From the NCBI RefSeq assembly GCF_014904065.1, contig NZ_JACXJG010000014.1, positions 10,365 to 21,822 on the forward strand: 11,458 nt of DNA. The letters run 5' to 3'. A program made the position numbers and the translations under genes. The DNA is from Gulosibacter sediminis. GTDB taxonomy: Bacteria > Actinomycetota > Actinomycetes > Actinomycetales > Microbacteriaceae. The notes below the pieces were generated by a model. It searched no databases and had not been told where the DNA came from. It saw only the letters and a program-made list of their open reading frames with translations. Shown here piece after piece: positions 2,922-10,625 of the stretch (positions within the stretch are counted from its first letter, which is position 1; each line of letters starts with the position of its first letter).

Positions 2922-4031
2922 CTACTTCGCGTATCGCGAGAGCGCGACCTCGATGAGCTCGGTGATGAGCTCGGGGTAGCTCACGCCCGTCTCCTGCCAG
3001 CAGCGCGGGAACATCGAGATCGGTGTGAAGCCGGGCAGCGTGTTCACCTCGTTGATGAGGAAGCCCTCGTCGTCGAGGAAGAAGTCGACGCGGGCGAGCC
3101 CGTCACAGCCGAGCGCCTCGAAGGCGCGCACCGCGAGGTCCTGCGCGGCCGCGAGCTGCGCATCGGTCAGTTCGGCCGGGCACACGAGCTGCGCCGCGGA
3201 GTCGTCGAGGTACTTCGACGCGAAGTCGTAGAAGCCGCCGTTCGAGATGACGATCTCACCAGCAACCGAGGCCCGGGCGCGCTCCCCCGGGCGTGACGCG
3301 AGCACCGCGATTTCAACCTCGCGGCCCGAGATGCCGCGCTCGATGAGCACGTGGTCGTCTTCGGCGAGCGCGACGCGCATTGCCTCAGCAAGTGCCTCAG
3401 GCGCATCCACCTTCGACACGCCCACCGACGACCCGGCGCGGGCGGGCTTCACGAAGGCCGGGTAGCCGAGCTCATCGGCGACGCGCGAGGTAACGATGTC
3501 GCCGGCCTGTGCCCACTCCTGCGCGTGCACCGTGATGCCGGGCGCGGTGCGAATGCCCGCGGCCTCGAGCACGAGCTTCGTGTAGTGCTTGTCCATGCCA
3601 ACGGCGCTCGCGAGCACCGACGAGCCGACGAACGGCAGGCCGACGAGCTCGAGCGCGCCCTGCAGAGTGCCGTCCTCGCCGAACGGGCCGTGCAGCACCG
3701 GGAACACGAGGTCGATGTCGCCGAGCGACTCGATGACGCCGTCGCGCAGCACGCGCAGCTCGCGGGTGTCGGCCGAGTCGGGCAGCAGGATACGGGTGCC
3801 GTTGTCGACGATCTCGGGCAGGTGCTCGGGGTCGAGGCGGAACTTCTCGGCGTCGTCGTCCTCGAGCACCCACGCGCCCTGACGTGTGATGCCGACGGGA
3901 ATCACGCGGTAGCGGTCGCGATCGATCGCTCCGAGCACGCCCGACGCCGTGGCGCACGAGATCTGGTGCTCGCTCGAACGGCCACCGAAGACGAGCATCA
4001 CGGTCGTGAGCGGTGCGGTGGTGTCGGTCAT
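2922..4031 (-). CDS. ddl: D-alanine--D-alanine ligase
   Basis: Ddl joins two D-alanines using ATP in the cytoplasm, supplying the dipeptide end of the peptidoglycan precursor. The 369-residue ATP-grasp protein shows FGGRSSEHQIS (15-25), HGPFGEDG (114-121), the ATP-binding KPARAGSSVGVSK (195-207), GREVEIAVL (236-244), the omega-loop YDFASKY (268-274), ARVDFF (313-318) and the metal-binding INEVNTLPGFT (326-336). Tyr274 matches the tyrosine that in characterised enzymes favours D-Ala over D-lactate as second substrate, so a D-Ala-D-Ala product is expected. The ATG start overlaps the gpsA stop by four bases (ATGA), which supports this start and translational coupling. It is the last gene of the leuC-to-ddl unit. 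Confidence 0.96.
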   Translation of the reverse strand: MTDTTAPLTTVMLVFGGRSSEHQISCATASGVLGAIDRDRYRVIPVGITRQGAWVLEDDDAEKFRLDPEHLPEIVDNGTRILLPDSADTRELRVLRDGVIESLGDIDLVFPVLHGPFGEDGTLQGALELVGLPFVGSSVLASAVGMDKHYTKLVLEAAGIRTAPGITVHAQEWAQAGDIVTSRVADELGYPAFVKPARAGSSVGVSKVDAPEALAEAMRVALAEDDHVLIERGISGREVEIAVLASRPGERARASVAGEIVISNGGFYDFASKYLDDSAAQLVCPAELTDAQLAAAQDLAVRAFEALGCDGLARVDFFLDDEGFLINEVNTLPGFTPISMFPRCWQETGVSYPELITELIEVALSRYAK

Positions 4032-5113
4032 GCGGTTTCTCCCTGCGGTTCTTCGTCGTGTTCGGTGGCGAGGTGCGGCGCGAGGTCGGAGGGATGCATT
4101 TTGCCCTGCAGCACATCGGCGATCTGCTGCACGATTGGCATCGGCACGCGGCGCGAATTCGCAATCTGGAGAATCGACGATACCGAGCGCAGGCCCTCCG
4201 CCGTCTGTTCCATGCGCGAGTTGACGTCTTGGTAGCTGTAGCCCTGGCCGAGCAGGCGACCGGCGGTGAAGTTGCGCGAGAGCGGCGACATGCACGTCGC
4301 GATGAGGTCGCCCATGCCCGCGAGGCCCATCATGGTGTCGCGCGAGGCGCCGAGGGCCACCGCGAAATCGGTGATCTCGGCGAGACCGCGGGTCATGATC
4401 GACGCCTTGGTGTTCTCGCCGAAGCCGACGCCGTCACAAATGCCGATCGCGATGGCGATGAGGTTCTTGAGCACGCCGCCGAACTCGGTGCCGATGACGT
4501 CCTCGTTGACGTAGCTGCGGAGGTAGCTGTTGCGTGCGACCTGCGCGACGCGCACGGCGAGTTCGCGCGACTGGCTCGCGACCACGATCGCCGTCGGCTG
4601 CTCGCGGGCAATCTCGAGCGCAATGTTCGGGCCACTCGCGGCCGCGACTCGGTCGCCGTGGAGGTGCGCCACCTCGGAGATGACCTCACTCATGCGCTTG
4701 CCGGTCGAGCGTTCGACGCCCTTCATGAGGCTCACGATCGCCGCGTTAGGCGACAGCGCCGACGAGAACTCCTCGAGGTTCTCTCGGGCCGACTGCGCGG
4801 GCACCGAAAGGAAGATAATCGAGCCGTCAGCGACGGCCGAGCGGGTGTCGCAGGTGGCGCGGATGCGCGCGGGCAGGTTCACGCCCGGCAGGTAGAGGGT
4901 GTTGCGGTGCGCCTCGTTGATCTCGGCGGCGAGTTCGGGGCGCCGCACGACGAGCGTGACATCGCGGCCTCCGTCGGCGACAACCTTTGCGAAGGTCGTG
5001 CCCCAGTTACCGCCGCCAACCACGACCACGCGCTCCTGCTCGGCGGGCTGCCGCTCGTTTTCCGCGAACGCGGGCAGCGTCAGCGGTTGGGTGAGCGGGT
5101 ACCACTCGCTCAT
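4028..5113 (-). CDS. gpsA: NAD(P)H-dependent glycerol-3-phosphate dehydrogenase
   Basis: GpsA reduces dihydroxyacetone phosphate to sn-glycerol 3-phosphate, the backbone of phospholipids. Visible motifs are the Rossmann loop GGGNWGT (33-39), LMKGVE (129-134) with its active-site lysine region, SGPN (160-163), GGVLKN with the catalytic lysine at 217, NTKA (234-237) and GLAGMGDLIATC (263-274). At 361 residues it is slightly longer than usual because about 28 residues precede the Rossmann fold. The ATG start shares ATGA with the acyltransferase stop, which supports it. An in-frame GTG at codon 29 has AGGAG only three bases away and looks less likely. The gene lies between the acyltransferase that uses its product's derivative and ddl. 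Confidence 0.95.
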   Translation of the reverse strand: MSEWYPLTQPLTLPAFAENERQPAEQERVVVVGGGNWGTTFAKVVADGGRDVTLVVRRPELAAEINEAHRNTLYLPGVNLPARIRATCDTRSAVADGSIIFLSVPAQSARENLEEFSSALSPNAAIVSLMKGVERSTGKRMSEVISEVAHLHGDRVAAASGPNIALEIAREQPTAIVVASQSRELAVRVAQVARNSYLRSYVNEDVIGTEFGGVLKNLIAIAIGICDGVGFGENTKASIMTRGLAEITDFAVALGASRDTMMGLAGMGDLIATCMSPLSRNFTAGRLLGQGYSYQDVNSRMEQTAEGLRSVSSILQIANSRRVPMPIVQQIADVLQGKMHPSDLAPHLATEHDEEPQGETA

Positions 5114-5925
5114 TTCGCCGACCCCTCGTTCTTGCCGCGCCGACGACGCAGCTTCGCTGAGGCGCGTTCCTCCTGCACCTTCGTCGGCAGCCCGAACTCG
5201 GTCTCGCCATGGTTCGCGGGGTCATAGACCTCGGCGGGCGCCTCGCCCTCGCGAATCTCTTCGAGCAGACGCGTGATCTCGGCCATGAGGCGACGCGTCG
5301 CCTCCTCGACCGCGCTGCGCGAGGTGTGCTTGCCGGCAAACTCGGTCAGGTCGATTGGCTCGCCAACGTTGACGATGATCGGCGTGCGCCACCGAAACTT
5401 GAACTTCTTCTCGAAGCGCGGCATGAGTGCCTGCGCACCCCACGAAGCCATGGGGATCAGCGGCACATTCGATTCCAGGGCAAGGCGCACCGCGCCCGAC
5501 TTACCGCGCATCGGCCACGAGTCGGGCTCGCGGGTGAGCGTGCCCTCTGGATACACGATGACGATGCCCTGCTGGCTCACGAGCTCGCGGGCGGCCGACA
5601 TGCTGCCGCTGAGGTTCGCGGCGCGGGCACGCTCGACCGGGATCTGCCCGGACTTGCGCAGCAACCAGCCGAGGACGGGCACCTTGAACAACGAGGCCTT
5701 CGCCATGTAGCGCGGCTTTCGGCCGAGCTTCCATACCGCGACGCCGTTCGAGACGGGGTCGATGTCGGAGTAGTGATTCGGCGCGAGCACCGCCGCCCCG
5801 GTGGGCGGGAGGCTCCCGCGAATCTCGTACTTCGTTAGCAGCGACCATGGCGGCACCGCGATGCCCGCCATCACCCAGAACAGCGACGGTTTGCGCCGTT
5901 CCGGGTAGCGTCCACCTCGCGCCAT
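5110..5925 (-). CDS. PlsC-type 1-acylglycerol-3-phosphate acyltransferase
   Basis: The protein belongs to the PlsC/AGPAT family, which transfers an acyl chain to 1-acylglycerol-3-phosphate to form phosphatidate at the inner membrane face. In the 271 residues the catalytic motif NHYSDID (50-56; His51 and Asp56) is intact. It is followed by the substrate-binding motif YPEGT (125-129) and the VPLIPMA motif (154-160). A hydrophobic segment near residues 15-30 could hold it on the membrane. The C-terminal tail is rich in Arg/Lys. The gene starts three bases after the murA stop and ends inside the gpsA start. Actinobacteria carry several paralogues, some acting on mannosides or other lipids, so the exact acceptor is not certain; the next gene, gpsA, favours glycerophospholipid synthesis. 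Confidence 0.9.
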   Translation of the reverse strand: MARGGRYPERRKPSLFWVMAGIAVPPWSLLTKYEIRGSLPPTGAAVLAPNHYSDIDPVSNGVAVWKLGRKPRYMAKASLFKVPVLGWLLRKSGQIPVERARAANLSGSMSAARELVSQQGIVIVYPEGTLTREPDSWPMRGKSGAVRLALESNVPLIPMASWGAQALMPRFEKKFKFRWRTPIIVNVGEPIDLTEFAGKHTSRSAVEEATRRLMAEITRLLEEIREGEAPAEVYDPANHGETEFGLPTKVQEERASAKLRRRRGKNEGSAK

Positions 5926-5928
5926 CGT

Positions 5929-7305
5929 CTAGTTCTCGATCTCGAAGTCGGCGCCGAGGCCGCGCAGCTTCGAGAGGAAATTCTCGTAGCCACGCGCGAT
6001 GATGCCAACGTTCGAGACGCGCGATTCGCCCTCCGCCATGAGCGCGGCGATGAGATGGCTGAAGCCACCGCGCAGGTCGGGCACCTGAATGTCGGCGCCG
6101 TGCAGCTGCGACGGGCCCGAGATGACGGCCGAGTGCACGAAGTTGCGCTGGCCAAAGCGACACTTCTGGCCACCGAGGCACTCTCGGTGCAGTTCGATGG
6201 TCGCACCCATGGCCGAGAGCGCTTCGGTGAAGCCAAAGCGCTGCTCGTACACGGTCTCGTGCACGATCGAGACGCCGGGGGCCTGCGTGAGCGCGACCAC
6301 GACCGGCTGCTGCCAGTCAGTCATGAAGCCCGGGTGCACATCCGTCTCGATCACGACGGGACGCAACTCGTGCGCGTCGCCGGGGTGCGTGAAACGAATG
6401 CCGTCGTCCTGCACCTCGAAGCGCCCGCCCGCCTTGCGGAAGACGTTGAGGAAGGTGAGCATCTCGCTCTGGGTCGCTCCCTCGACGAAGATGTCACCGC
6501 GGGTCGCGAGTGCGGCGGCAGCCCAACTCGCGGCCTCGTTGCGATCAAACAGCGACTTGTGGTCGTAGCCGTGCATCGACGACACACCTTCGATGCGGAT
6601 CACGCGGTCGGCGTCCACCGAAATGACGGCGCCCATCTTCTGGAGCAGGTTGATGAGATCCATGATCTCGGGCTCGATGGCGGCGTTCGACAGCTCGGTG
6701 AGGCCCTGCGCGCGAACGGCGGTGAGCAGCACCTGCTCGGTCGCGCCAACCGACGGGTAGTCGAGGTGAATCTTCGCGCCCGTGAGGCCGTTCGGCGCGG
6801 TGAGGCGGATGCCCTCGGGCAGCTTGTCGACCGTGGCACCAAACGAGCGCAGTGCCGAGAGGTGGAAGTCGATCGGGCGGTCACCAATGCGGCAGCCACC
6901 GAGGTCGGGAATGAAGGCCTCGCCGAGCTGGTGCAGCAGCGGGCCGCAGAACAGAATCGGGATGCGGCTCGACCCGGCGTGCGCATTGATCTCTGCCGAG
7001 TGCGCACGCTTCACGTTCGACGGGTCGAGGCGGATCTCGCCGCCCTCGACGTCGCGGTCAATCTCGACGCCGTGCACGCCGAGCAAGCCCGAAACGATGC
7101 GAACATCAGAGATGTCGGGCACATTGCGCAGCACGCTCGGCGTATCGGCGAGCAGGGCCGCGACCATGGCCTTGGTTACAAAATTCTTGGCACCACGTAC
7201 GTGGACACGTCCGTTGAGGGGCTGGCCCCCGTGGAAAGTGATGGTGTCGGCGTCGAGTCCCGAGAACTTTGCGAAACGTGCAGCGTCCTCAGTCAGTGTG
7301 CTCAC
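5929..7305 (-). CDS. murA: UDP-N-acetylglucosamine 1-carboxyvinyltransferase MurA
   Basis: MurA transfers enolpyruvate from phosphoenolpyruvate to UDP-GlcNAc, the first committed step of peptidoglycan synthesis. The 458-residue EPSP-synthase-fold protein has RGAKN (37-41; Lys40-Asn41), [11 protein letters not shown] (136-146) with the catalytic cysteine at 138, [13 protein letters not shown] (321-333; Asp330) and DLR (410-412; the PEP-binding arginine). It is about 40 residues longer than the E. coli enzyme. The excess is an N-terminal stretch of about 20 residues and an insertion near 374-392 that contains two cysteines (376, 382). The start is GTG 7305, overlapping the leuD stop by four bases (GTGA), so it is probably coupled to leuD. 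Cys138 is the residue alkylated by fosfomycin in other MurA enzymes. Confidence 0.95.
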
Positions 7306-7955
7306 GCGCGATTCCCTCCAGTTGCTTCGGTAATTGCCGGGATTCCCGGCTCAGTTTCGCCCAGTGCGGGCAGGGTCCGCGGCATCCAGCTCGGGCGAGT
7401 CTTCTCAAACTCGTCGATTGCCGATTCGTCGCGGAGGGTCAGCCCGATGTCATCGAGCCCCTCGAGGAGGCGCCAGCGCATGTACGGGTCGATCTCGAAA
7501 CCAAACTCGAGTTCACCCGCGCGCACAAGCTGCGCCTCAAGATCTACCGTCACCGCGGCGCCGGGGTCGCCCTCGAGGTACTCCCAGATCTGCTCGACCT
7601 GGGGCTCCTCGATGATGGCGATAAGCAGGCCCTGCTTGCCCGAGTTACCGCGGAAAATTTCGCCGAAGCGCGAGCCGATGACCGCCTGGAAGCCGTAGTC
7701 CTTGAGCGCCCACACGGCGTGCTCGCGGCTCGAGCCGGTGCCAAAGTCGGGGCCGACGACGAGCACGCGCGGGCTCGCGTACGCGGGCTGGTTCAGGATG
7801 AACTCCGGGTCCTGCCGCCAGTTCGCGAACAGGGCATCGTCAAAGCCGGTTTTCGTGACGCGCTTGAGGAACACCGCCGGGATGATCTGGTCGGTGTCGA
7901 CGTTCGAACGGCGCAGCGGAACTCCGGTGCCGTCAATCCTTGAAATTTTGTCCAT
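7302..7955 (-). CDS. leuD: 3-isopropylmalate dehydratase small subunit
   Basis: LeuD is the small, swivelling subunit that combines with LeuC to isomerise 2-isopropylmalate to 3-isopropylmalate in leucine synthesis. The 217-residue product shows [10 protein letters not shown] (17-26), the signature [14 protein letters not shown] (71-84) and [11 protein letters not shown] (95-105). The C-terminus extends somewhat past the [10 protein letters not shown] segment found in actinobacterial LeuD. Its ATG uses the last A of the leuC stop (TAATG, a 1-bp overlap), which fixes the start and implies co-translation with its partner subunit. Its stop overlaps the murA start. Confidence 0.97.
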
Positions 7956-9415
7956 TAGGCGGCCTCTCCCGCGTGTGCCGGTGCCACGACGGGCTCCAGG
8001 TCGGATGGGCTTGAGAGCGTTCCGCGCACCGCGGTCGCGCCCGCGACGAGCGGCGAGACGAGGTGGGTGCGGCCACCCTTGCCCTGGCGGCCCTCAAAGT
8101 TGCGGTTCGAGGTCGAGGCGCAGCGTTCGCCCGGTTCGAGCTGGTCGGGGTTCATGCCGAGGCACATCGAGCAGCCGGCGAAGCGCCACTCGGCACCGAA
8201 GTCCTTCACGATGCGGTCGATGCCCTCGGCCTCGGCCTGCAGGCGCACGCGGGCCGAACCCGGCACGACCATGACGCGAACGTCATCCGCCTTCTGGCGG
8301 CCCTCGATGATGCTCGCGAAGGCACGGAGGTCTTCGATGCGCGAGTTCGTGCACGAGCCCATGAACACCGTGTCGACCTTGACGTCCTTGAGCGGCGTGC
8401 CGGCCTTGAGGTCCATGTATTCGAGCGCGCGCTCAGCGGCAGTGCGCTCGTTCGGGTCGGCCATGTCGGCCGGGTTCGGCACGACCTCCGACAGCGGCGA
8501 ACCTTGGCCGGGGTTCGTGCCCCAGGTCACGAAGGGCTCGAGCTCGTTCGCGTCGATGAACACCTCAGCGTCGAACGTCGCTCCCTCGTCGGTGCGCAGG
8601 GTGCGCCAGTACTCGACCGCGGCATCCCAGTCAGCGCCCGCTGGCGCGTGCGGGCGGCCCTTGAGGTAGTCGAACGTCGTGTCGTCGGGAGCGACGAGGC
8701 CCGCGCGGGCGCCCGCCTCGATCGACATGTTGCAGATCGTCATGCGGCCCTCCATCGAGAGCTCCCGGATCGCCGAACCGCGGTATTCGAGCACGTAGCC
8801 CGCGCCGCCGCCGGTGCCGATCTTCGCGATGACCGCGAGGATGATGTCCTTCGCCGTCACGCCGGGGCGCAGCGTGCCCTCGACGTTGATGGCCATGGTC
8901 TTGAACGGCTTCAGCGGCAGGGTCTGGGTGGCGAGCACGTGCTCGACCTCCGACGTGCCGATACCGAACGCCATCGCGCCGAACGCGCCGTGCGTCGAGG
9001 TGTGCGAGTCGCCGCATACGACCGTGACGCCGGGCATCGTCAGGCCGAGCTGCGGGCCGACGACGTGCACGATGCCCTGCTCGCGGTCGCCGAGCGAGTG
9101 GAGACGAATGCCGAACTCCTCGGCGTTGTGGCGCAGGGTGTCGATCTGCGTGCGCGACGTGTCGTCGGCGATGCGGTCGAGGATGTTCACCGTCGGGGTG
9201 TTGTGGTCCTCAGTCGCGATCGTGAGGTCGGGGCGGCGCACCGGGCGGCCGGCCTGACGGAGGCCATCGAAGGCCTGCGGGCTCGTGACCTCGTGCATGA
9301 TGTGCAGGTCGATGTAGATGAGGTCGGGCGCACCGTCCTCGCCGCGCTTCACAATGTGGGCGTCCCACACCTTCTCGGGCAGCGTCTTGGGCGCCTGTGC
9401 GGATTCTGTGCTCAT
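7955..9415 (-). CDS. leuC: 3-isopropylmalate dehydratase large subunit
   Basis: LeuC is the [4Fe-4S] catalytic subunit of isopropylmalate isomerase. The 486-residue protein has the aconitase-superfamily landmarks: TEDHNTPT (68-75), [20 protein letters not shown] (134-153), and the three cluster-binding cysteines in MGSCTNSR (Cys355) and [11 protein letters not shown] (Cys415, Cys418). [10 protein letters not shown] (436-445) follows. Length and motifs are normal. The ATG start at 9415 has only weak ribosome-site candidates: AAGAGA ten bases upstream and GGAA two bases upstream. It is the first structural gene of the six-gene minus-strand unit and lies 65 bases after a Leu-rich leader ORF and hairpin, so leucine-dependent control is likely. 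Confidence 0.97.
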
Positions 9416-9459
9416 GGTTCCAATTTCTCTTGGTTCAGCGGTTCAGGCGATGACTGACT

Positions 9460-9496
9460 CCGCGACGGGGTCGCCTTTGGCTAAATCCCGTCGCGG
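9460..9496 (-). promoter_or_regulatory. Attenuator-like hairpins in the leuC leader
   Basis: Two exactly complementary 10-base arms, CCGCGACGGG (9460-9469) and CCCGTCGCGG (9487-9496), enclose a 17-nt loop. On the minus-strand transcript the first arm falls in the last codons of the Leu-rich leader ORF (from the C of its TGC codon through GGG). A second stem competes for the other arm: GCGAC (minus strand, 9474-9470), a CCC loop and GTCGC (9466-9462). A weaker AGGCGA/TCGCCT pairing (9472-9477 with 9445-9450) is also possible. A ribosome paused on the Leu codons would cover the first arm and favour the alternative folds. There is no T-tract, so control could be at translation or by Rho rather than by a classic intrinsic terminator. 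The mechanism is inferred. Confidence 0.6.
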
Positions 9497-9531
9497 CACA
9501 GAAGGAGCCGCAGAACACGCATGCACGTCAT
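9481..9531 (-). CDS. Leucine-rich leader peptide ahead of leuCD
   Basis: A 16-codon minus-strand ORF reads MTCMRVLRLLLCRDGI and stops at TAG 9483-9481. Four of five consecutive codons are leucine (CTG CGG CTC CTT CTG), and CTT is uncommon in the neighbouring genes. A second ATG at 9522 gives a 13-residue form (MRVLRLLLCRDGI). That start fits a leaderless transcript, because a -10-like TACGAT ends seven bases before it; no Shine-Dalgarno sequence is visible before either ATG. The ORF ends inside the first arm of a perfect 10-bp hairpin and lies 65 bases before leuC, the arrangement of a leucine attenuation leader. The same frame stays open upstream into the PP2C gene, so the ATG choice is inference. 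Confidence 0.65.
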   Translation of the reverse strand: MTCMRVLRLLLCRDGI

Positions 9532-9557
9532 CGTAGCAACCGGCCCAAATTCGTCAG
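9530..9557 (-). promoter_or_regulatory. Candidate promoter for the leuCD leader and operon
   Basis: On the minus strand a -35-like CTGACG (9557-9552; four of six matches to TTGACA) and a -10-like TACGAT (9535-9530; four of six matches to TATAAT) are 16 bp apart. Initiation seven bases past the -10 would fall on the ATG at 9522 of the Leu-rich leader ORF. The agreement between promoter position and leaderless start is the main reason to report it; the hexamers alone are weak. Confidence 0.4.
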
Positions 9558-9571
9558 GTAGGTCGTTTTCG

Positions 9572-9588
9572 ACGTTCGCCGAGAACGT
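9572..9588 (-). terminator. Hairpin just after the PP2C stop
   Basis: Five bases past the PP2C stop a perfect 6-bp inverted repeat, ACGTTC and GAACGT with a 5-nt loop, could end the phosphatase transcript before the leuC leader. No T-tract follows on the minus strand. The stem is modest, so read-through into leuC cannot be excluded. Confidence 0.35.
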
Positions 9589-9592
9589 AGTC

Positions 9593-10447
9593 TCACTGGC
9601 CCGGCTCGGCGGAAGCGCTCGGCGGTGCTTCAACACCCTCAGGAGCGACCACGGTCGACTCAACCACCACGACACTGACGTTGTCGCGGCCGCCATGCCG
9701 CAGCGCCCCCGCAACGAGCGCCTGCGCGAGCGTGTCCTTGTCGTGGGTGTTCTCGATGTGGTTCCGAATCGTCGCCGAGATCTGCTCGTCCTCGAGCTCT
9801 TTCGTGAGCCCGTCGGAGCAGATGATGAAGACTTGGTGGCCCTGCACGGGCATGAGCCAGAGGTCGGTGTCAACGAAGGTATCCGACCCAACGGCGCGGG
9901 TAATGACGTTGCGGTCAGGGTGCACGAGGGCTTCCTCCGGCGTGATGACGCCGAGCGCCACAAGCTCATGCACCGCCGAGTGGTCCACTGTGATCTGCAC
10001 GACCTCGCGGCCATTCCAGCTGTAGACACGCGAGTCGCCGACATTGAAGATCATCCAGTGCGGCAGAATCTCGTCGCCGTCGCCCGCCGCGACCTCGACG
10101 AGCGCGACGCCGGTGAGGGTCGTGCCGGCGACCGCCCCTGGGCCGTCCGCCTCGGTGATGAGGTTTTGGATGCGGTCGTTCGCCGCGTCGATGACAGCGA
10201 GGATTTCGGCGGGGGTCGACGGCTCGCTCGAGGGCAGCAACTCGTCGAAGGCCGCGCCGATAGCCTGGCTCGCGCGATCTCCGTAGTGGTGGCCGCCCAT
10301 GCCGTCGGCGACAAGGAAGATCGGTGCACGGGTGTAGACGGAGTCCTCGTTGACGGCGCGCACAGCACCGATGTCCGTCGCTGCGACGGCGCGGAGTTCA
10401 ATGTTGCCGCCGCGGGTCGCGAGCGTAGTGATTAGCTCTTCGGCCAC
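9593..10447 (-). CDS. PP2C-type (PPM) serine/threonine protein phosphatase
   Basis: This is a metal-dependent protein phosphatase of the PP2C/PPM family, which removes phosphate from Ser/Thr of proteins. The phosphatase domain is complete in 284 residues: TDIGAVRAVNEDS (24-36), the metal-binding DGMGGH (48-53), GTTLTGVAL, NVGDSRVYSW, the VITRAVGSD segment, SDGLT and a C-terminal GGRDN with the last metal aspartate. No transmembrane segment or sensor domain is seen, so it is probably a cytosolic stand-alone enzyme, unlike membrane-anchored PstP. I chose GTG 10447, which has GGGGTG three bases upstream. GTG 10453 and ATG 10483 are in-frame alternatives that only lengthen the poorly conserved N-terminus. 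No kinase or FHA gene lies in the window, so its substrate is unknown. Confidence 0.9.
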   Translation of the reverse strand: MAEELITTLATRGGNIELRAVAATDIGAVRAVNEDSVYTRAPIFLVADGMGGHHYGDRASQAIGAAFDELLPSSEPSTPAEILAVIDAANDRIQNLITEADGPGAVAGTTLTGVALVEVAAGDGDEILPHWMIFNVGDSRVYSWNGREVVQITVDHSAVHELVALGVITPEEALVHPDRNVITRAVGSDTFVDTDLWLMPVQGHQVFIICSDGLTKELEDEQISATIRNHIENTHDKDTLAQALVAGALRHGGRDNVSVVVVESTVVAPEGVEAPPSASAEPGQ

Positions 10448-10512
10448 TTCCACCCCTATGCGTTCTGCCTGCCAAAAAACCATAGCGGGTTCGAGGCACG
10501 CCGTGGAAACCA

Positions 10513-10544
10513 ACAAAGCCCGGACCTTGCGATCCGGGCTTTGT
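10513..10544 (-). terminator. Intrinsic terminator of the tRNA-Glu transcript
   Basis: A perfect 12-bp stem (ACAAAGCCCGGA with TCCGGGCTTTGT) and an 8-nt loop begins six bases after the tRNA 3' end on the minus strand. The descending arm ends CTTTGT and is followed by TGGTTT, giving a T-rich end. It separates the tRNA from the PP2C gene, which reads in the same direction. Confidence 0.85.
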
Positions 10545-10549
10545 CAGGT

Positions 10550-10625
10550 TGGTGACCCCAGCGGGATTTGAACCCGCGCTGCCGCCGTGAGAGGGCGGTG
10601 TCCTAGGCCGCTAAACGATGGGGCC
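10550..10625 (-). tRNA. tRNA-Glu (anticodon CUC), CCA encoded
   Basis: The minus strand folds as a complete 76-nt tRNA. The acceptor stem is GGCCCCA with TGGGGTC (one G-U pair), the discriminator is A and the 3' CCA is encoded. The D arm carries TTTAGCGGCCTAGGA. The anticodon stem is CCGCC/GGCGG around the loop CTCTCAC, so the anticodon is CUC at 10592-10590, reading GAG. The T arm is GCGGG-TTCAAAT-CCCGC. GAG is the favoured glutamate codon in genomes of this composition. Confidence 0.97.

Follow-up and report, generated by a model that had tools for sequence, protein, structure and literature searches.

A second copy of the LEU element upstream of leuCD in Microbacteriaceae

The window analyzed here is a stretch of 11,458 nucleotides from Gulosibacter sediminis, and all the features we discuss lie on its minus strand. 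The controlled gene is leuC (7955..9415), the large subunit of 3-isopropylmalate dehydratase, which NCBIfam model TIGR00170 identifies with a score of 741 bits (cut-off 560). The end of leuC is overlapped by leuD (7302..7955), the small subunit, for which TIGR00171 scores 176 bits (cut-off 116). Downstream of this pair, in the same-strand row that spans 2922-9415, a murA-like gene of the EPSP synthase family and an acyltransferase gene follow with close spacing, and the row also holds genes that we take to be gpsA-like and ddl-like. A stop of transcription upstream of leuC could affect these envelope genes on the same strand. The arrangement of leuD and a murA-like gene downstream of leuC is also seen in many related loci. 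A PP2C-type phosphatase gene (9593-10516) lies directly upstream of the leader promoter described below, preceded by a tRNA gene (10553-10625) recognized by Rfam. A PP2C match upstream of leuC occurs in loci L011, L026, L036 and L217 as well.

The gap before leuC contains a 13-codon leader ORF, MRVLRLLLCRDGI, which occupies 9481..9522 and runs from an ATG at 9522-9520 to a TAG at 9483-9481. Four of the five codons CTG CGG CTC CTT CTG (9499..9513) encode leucine and one of the four is CTT. An in-frame ATG further upstream, at 9531, would give a leader of 16 codons. The first-pass annotation described just such a leucine leader of 13 or 16 codons, and the ORF is indeed present with a conserved frame. 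Within the Leu run the letters CTCCTT resemble an anti-Shine-Dalgarno sequence. Two nucleotides separate the end of the run from a stem that we call P2, a perfect 10-bp pairing between the 5' arm CCGCGACGGG (9487..9496), which overlaps the end of the leader ORF, and the 3' arm CCCGTCGCGG (9460..9469). The loop of this stem carries the strand AGGCGA (9471..9476), which pairs with TCGCCT (9445..9450) downstream to form a predicted pseudoknot, P3. The 132-nt stretch from 9531 to 9400 has a fold that was beaten or matched by only 3 of 200 shuffled sequences (z -2.3). Rfam gave no match up to E 5 at 9380-9620 with 4227 families searched.

An extended -10 element, TGC-TACGAT (9530..9538), has its hexamer TACGAT at 9535-9530, 7 nt upstream of the ATG at 9522. 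The ATG at 9531 overlaps this -10 box, so it is unlikely to be on the transcript and we reject it as the start of the leader; 9522 is the likely start and the leader is predicted to be leaderless. This agrees with the earlier proposal of a leaderless start at the second ATG. A strict sigma-70 scan, which looks for both hexamers, found no promoter in 9300-9700, and we predict the promoter from the conserved extended -10 by itself.

To describe the parts of the element we use 107 aligned elements, 46 upstream of leuC and 61 upstream of leuA; 5 of the 66 leuA elements were left out. At least three Leu codons occur in the seven codons before P2 in 102 of the 107 in the leader frame and in none of the 107 in either of the other frames. 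A stop codon falls inside the P2 loop in the leader frame of every element; in the other two frames this happens in 5 and 7. The 105 elements that entered the folds have leaders of 12-18 codons, 14 codons being the length in 67, and the start codon is GTG in 64 and ATG in 41. In 92 of the 105 the leader stop lies six codons (18 nt) beyond the final complete codon ahead of P2. The motif TANNNT is found 6-7 nt upstream of the leader start in 104 of the 107 elements, with TGn in 96 of these, and the starts had been chosen by length, independent of the -10. Many of the leaders read M or V followed by LFGLLLLSCRDES. Codon choice in the Leu run is narrow. Counting back from P2, 106 of 107 elements have CTT at codon -2, the position of the CTT in the window's leader; codon -3 is CTT or CTC in 103, and codon -4 is CTC or CTT in 91. 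In G+C-rich genomes such as these, leucine is usually encoded by CTG.

The perfect 10-bp hairpin noted at the end of the leader ORF holds up across relatives. In P2, 1065 of the 1070 aligned cells pair, and both-sided changes that keep the pairing occur at 3 of the 10 pairs among leuC elements and at 2 of the 10 among leuA elements. An alignment of relatives had been suggested as the check on the original reading, and the Leu run and the compensatory stem changes are what it contains. The covariation score of P2 is reached by 0 of 500 shuffles, in the leuC and leuA sets alike. Some further measures gave no excess: the number of further pair types was as high in 500 of 500 shuffles for leuC and 61 of 500 for leuA, and the number of pairs with both-sided changes in the leuA set was as high in 61 of 500.

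P3 was seen as a helix of at least 4 bp between the loop and a strand 8-20 nt past P2 in 105 of 107 elements. The clear statistical result comes from a test restricted to these loop and downstream strand positions. Loops paired with their own partners score 12.30 against 11.19 for shuffled partners, a value that 0 of 5000 shuffles reach; taken separately, the leuC set gives 0 of 5000 and the leuA set 1 of 5000. Foreign partners often fit as well, GGCC opposite GGCT or GGCC being a frequent combination. Among the 25 loops without GGCC the difference is larger (14.86 versus 10.65, 0 of 5000 as high), and there the partner has changed along with the loop. Examples are AGGCGA:TCGCCT in the window, CTAAGCC:GGCTTAG in the leuA element of the window's own genome, ACCGACC:GGTCGGT in L206 and CCCCGGC:GCCGGGG in L212. 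An unrestricted form of the test is weaker, with 1 (all elements), 21 (leuC) and 2 (leuA) of 2000 shuffles as high.

Two parts of the first-pass annotation do not survive this comparison. It proposed a smaller hairpin, GCGAC-CCC-GTCGC, competing for an arm of the larger one. The hairpin exists in the window, but it is present in 1 of 107 elements, the window's own, and we reject it as a working part; most of the loop bases involved (AGGCGA, 9476-9471) belong to the conserved pseudoknot with 9450-9445, which had been missed. It also used the word attenuator. If this is taken to mean that transcription ends at an intrinsic terminator, as in classical attenuation, it has no support at this leader. 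The absence of a T-tract had already been pointed out and it is borne out: the 15 nt that follow the window's P2 contain no T run longer than 1, and a terminator scan of 9300-9700 returned 0. Across the 107 elements the longest T run is 1-4 in the 15 nt after P2 and 0-5 in nucleotides 9-40.

To find how widely the element occurs, we start from a scan for leuC that gave 80 loci from named genomes. The element lies upstream of leuC in 19 of the 80, in addition to the window, and all 19 are labelled Microbacteriaceae. Alignment A1 holds 18 of these leuC elements, the window's and 17 relatives, and from A1 alone we built a covariance model, R1, that describes only the stem. R1 has two strong matches in the window's genome, one being the element upstream of leuC (70.6 bits) and the other upstream of leuA (53.6 bits, at G000:C28:107416); the next best match reaches 21 bits and is on the opposite strand of the leuC element. 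That a model made from leuC elements matches leuA elements is what establishes sequence kinship with the LEU element, a leuA leader already described in Actinobacteria. The sequences indicate that the window's element is kin to that published element and not an independent invention. A LeuC tree places the window inside Microbacteriaceae, and that is why we call the sampled family (f1) by this name.

An R1 match at E 0.1 or better is found in 145 of 150 sampled genomes of the family. For association with genes we used 70 family genomes that represent 69 genera and counted an element when it lay within 600 nt upstream of the gene. All 66 family genomes with leuA have an R1 match ahead of that gene, and 46 of the 67 that carry leuC have one ahead of leuC, so a leucine leader exists here far beyond chance. 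Relatives lacking the short ORF had been named in advance as evidence against it. The element is kept in those 46 genomes and the remaining 21 of 67 have no R1 match upstream of leuC. We fetched and searched the leuC loci of 15 of the 21 and found one likely remnant. It lies before leuC of G017 (L215:2643-2731), is a 12-bit match, keeps CTTAG and the 5' arm CCGCGACGAG, and has a 3' arm that pairs incompletely. L215 is likely a decayed LEU element to judge by these letters, and such a remnant upstream of leuC means that some absences are losses. Eight weak family matches (25-33 bits) have no adjoining leu gene; we regard them as likely chance, and the 7 of 8 that were fetched lie in open frames of 172-942 codons.

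Beyond the family the picture is different for the two genes. R1 matches in 109 of 139 genomes of an order sample. In 80 genomes of 17 other families, chosen for having an R1 match somewhere, the element is upstream of leuA in 78 and of leuC in 0. R1 is tuned to the window's family and could miss weaker leuC elements in other families. The same 80 genomes have 18 further matches away from leuA and leuC, and 13 of these regions were fetched: 5 are of a Val/Ile/Leu type described below, 1 lies before a leuA fragment, 6 fall within long open frames and 1 sits at the end of a contig. In a class sample R1 matches 100 of 118 genomes at E 0.001. We also inspected 54 loci of the best order and class matches (L119-L147, L288-L312), of which 44 have leuA, 7 have leuC, 2 have only leuB and 1 has none of these; the 7 leuC loci all belong to the window's family. 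A LeuC tree of 53 rows, made from the window plus 52 of the 80 loci, confines the element to a single clade, which starts past the Rhodoluna branch (support 99/87); 20 of its rows have the element and 7 do not.

It might be supposed that the two copies in a genome are kept alike by recent conversion. We reject this as a general rule since the likeness of leuA and leuC elements in the same genome (0.745 over 43 genomes) is barely above that of shuffled pairs (0.730, with 25 of 5000 as high). Individual genomes vary: the leuA and leuC leaders of G011 are identical over 24 nt, while in the window's genome the identity over 24 nt is 0.46.

Related elements turn up before other leucine genes. A second leuA copy, 53-58% identical, is preceded by a LEU-type element in 4 of the 7 family genomes that have one (G051:C1:24380, G003:C1:401022, G024:C1:12213 and G026:C1:23993). 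L293, L299 and L331, from other orders, are similar, with leuA 55-57% identical. Nine loci from other families (L148, L149, L150, L158, L159, L307, L318, L322 and L324) have leaders with mixed Val, Ile and Leu codons, for example MTQRVVILIRRGEFR and MLWSVRILSCRDEAR. The elements in these nine precede a conserved microprotein of about 20-45 amino acids (MSEEAQKARQALQESMDLREQGHSDD and its kin) with a core close to ALQESMDLRD, which is encoded in the gap that separates the element from leuB. In 8 of the 9 a leuB-like gene begins 207-669 nt beyond the element, and none was seen in L158; leuB is confirmed by NCBIfam in L148 and L159 and by tblastn in others. Judged from these letters, the Val/Ile/Leu type looks like a branched-chain version that may control the small protein. 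Further Val/Ile/Leu leaders, such as MRKQLVVIACRGGAS in L316, are found in L291, L315, L316, L319, L325, L329 and L332, from other orders of the class, 144-465 nt upstream of leuB. A simple filter did not find the microprotein in those seven loci, except for a weak match in L291.

The alignments thus contain a conserved leader with its frame and its -10 spacing, a conserved stem, a pseudoknot, and kinship with the leuA elements. We believe the best account of the window's copy is that it is a second LEU element before leuCD, a leaderless leader at which stalling on Leu codons controls translation of leuC, and we hold this with somewhat better than even confidence. Transcription in Gulosibacter sediminis would begin at the start codon of the leader, which would then be translated without a Shine-Dalgarno sequence. 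When leucyl-tRNA is plentiful the ribosome would pass the Leu codons and finish at the stop in the P2 loop, after which the RNA would fold into P2, P3 and a base stem in which the CUCCUU of the Leu run pairs with the region of the leuC translation start, and the folded leader would lower leuC translation. A shortage of leucyl-tRNA would instead make the ribosome stall on the Leu codons, cover the Leu run and part of the P2 5' arm, and leave the leuC start free. The choice of CTT and CTC at codons -2 and -3 fits pairing with a Shine-Dalgarno sequence.

Folding gives a mixed picture of this base stem. The folds cover 44 leuC and 61 leuA elements with the pseudoknot left out; the leuC elements L185 and L200 were omitted since they have no start codon by the rule used. 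Pairing of at least 3 bp between the Leu run and the Shine-Dalgarno sequence is expected in 27 of 44 leuC and 53 of 61 leuA folds, and the run is the best partner of a narrow Shine-Dalgarno window in 23 of the 44 and 51 of the 61. With a wider target (-20 to +13) it is the best partner in 21 of 44 and 29 of 61, and against this target the Leu run does no better than the strongest competing stretch in the leuC and leuA folds. From the size of a ribosome footprint we infer that a ribosome at the stop would cover the P2 5' arm and loop and hardly touch the Leu run, and that a stalled one would cover the run. With a ribosome masked on the Leu codons, the Shine-Dalgarno window opens by more than 0.1 in 19 of 44 leuC and 36 of 61 leuA folds and closes in 3 of each; with the mask at the stop the mean changes little (0.42 to 0.43 for leuC, 0.37 to 0.40 for leuA). 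Translational control at leuC by a ribosome stalled on leucine codons is likely.

Other observations also count against this explanation. The published mutants of the S. coelicolor leuA leader, described below, are one, and the 21 of 67 family genomes with leuC and no element before it are another. A third is the window itself, where the Shine-Dalgarno sequence is weak and the expected pairing of the Leu run with it is 0.01 bp. A minimum-energy fold of this one sequence pairs leader positions 9502-9497 with codons 2-4 of leuC instead (9405..9410), which is the predicted partner for the base stem here.

The same element could also act on transcription. Rho would terminate in the untranslated stretch that follows when the leader is completed quickly; it would be blocked by the pseudoknot or by a ribosome that has stalled. 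The lack of any intrinsic terminator suits this idea, Rho has been suggested for the leaders of cys operons in actinobacteria (PMC1262725), and the distance from leader stop to gene start, a median of 70 nt with a range of 32-111 over 44 leuC elements, provides such a stretch. However, that stretch is short, and the Leu-codon choice that is conserved matches a Shine-Dalgarno sequence. Unless they have promoters of their own, the murA-like gene, the acyltransferase gene and the further genes would be shut off too, and envelope-type genes close downstream of leuCD on the same strand speak against stopping transcription at the leader. We consider Rho-dependent control possible but unlikely. Having both a leuA and a leuC copy in the same cell makes the mechanism directly testable because the genes after leuC should stay on.

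Less probable still, and to our minds rather doubtful, is the idea that a regulatory protein, an ML1624-type helicase as proposed in 2005, binds the element and that the leader peptide is secondary. The proposal came from a phylogenetic pattern and from mutants that do not fit attenuation (Seliverstov et al., PMC1262725), but binding alone does not explain why the frame of the Leu run, the spacing of the start and the position of the stop are kept over 107 elements despite base changes. The ordering we find most likely is therefore translational control by ribosome stalling, then Rho, then a binding protein. Very improbable is a decayed copy in this organism that keeps P2 and P3 and no longer controls leuC: the missing Shine-Dalgarno pairing, the divergence from the same genome's leuA leader and the remnant in L215 would fit, but the window's pseudoknot has changed on both strands and still matches, the frame is intact, the -10 is extended, the score is 70.6 bits, and the sister genome G020 (L204) keeps the element with a stem over the GGAG upstream of leuC.

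The leuCD genes of Corynebacterium glutamicum are a target of LtbR. LtbR regulates leucine genes in that species (Brune et al. 2007; PMC4340878), and PMC4340878 describes NdgR and its orthologues as adjoining leuCD and as transcriptional regulators of it. We searched for this regulator with one query, L033:2162-2881, which lies beside leuC in Pseudarthrobacter and which, by its position and family, we take to be LtbR/NdgR. At E 1e-25 it has no match in 69 of 70 family genomes, one having a 41% match, and it has a match in 10 of 10 checked genomes of other families. At least 800 nt upstream of leuC were available in 76 of the 80 leuC loci. Within the available stretch the regulator gene is found in 0 of 18 loci that have the element and in 48 of 58 that do not, and nine of the 10 loci with neither fall in the Microbacteriaceae clade. 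This contrast is between whole clades and so amounts to one or two evolutionary events; we claim no statistic for it. In the family that lacks the leuCD regulator, its place is often occupied by an RNA element that has been copied, and this suggests a regulator swap. It seems to us about an even bet that the ancestor of the Microbacteriaceae lost the IclR-type LtbR/NdgR of leuCD and that a duplicated leuA LEU element took over leuCD, exchanging a transcription factor for a leaderless translational switch. This would sit within a wider habit of copying the module to leucine genes, as with the leuA paralogues and with the Val/Ile/Leu version before the microprotein and leuB in other families.

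It remains to compare the element with known systems. In the leu and trp attenuators of enterobacteria the ribosome stalls at codons for the end product and alternating hairpins decide the fate of a U-tract terminator. The window's element differs in having no such terminator. In C. glutamicum leuL is a Leu-rich leader with four consecutive Leu codons upstream of leuA, and PMC4046766 and PMC8709942 term it transcriptional attenuation, unlike what we propose for the window. A closer relative is LeuL1, the leuA leader of Streptomyces lividans TK24, MRFGLLLLSCRGEGL, which is leaderless by RNA-seq and for which PMC8079986 reports no typical terminator. Its core LLLLSCR is common to many leaders of the family, and the window's leader retains LLLCR only.

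The closest system is the LEU element that Seliverstov et al. (2005, PMC1262725) published upstream of leuA in Actinobacteria. It has a leader ORF with a Leu run, a pseudoknot, as in the window, and a possible base stem between the Leu codons and the Shine-Dalgarno sequence, with no terminator described. Its authors preferred a binding protein for it, and they recount that leader mutants of Streptomyces coelicolor leuA had effects inconsistent with classical attenuation. They found it upstream of leuA, with one likeness inside a transposase gene, whereas the window's copy stands before leuCD; the words leuC, leuB and leuD are absent from their text. Among the open-licence papers that literature searches turned up, none mentions a leuC or leuCD leader of this kind in its title or the opening of its abstract, which is weak evidence of novelty. 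By its sequence and structure we file the window's element as a paralogous copy of the LEU element, distinct from the leuA copy. What is new is this second copy upstream of leuCD in Microbacteriaceae, which extends the element of 2005 to a second operon of the leucine pathway, and the 107 aligned natural variants fix its parts: the start spacing, the frame, the stop in the loop and the pseudoknot. From these comparisons we regard it as a conserved and functional-looking element, a known one in a new place.
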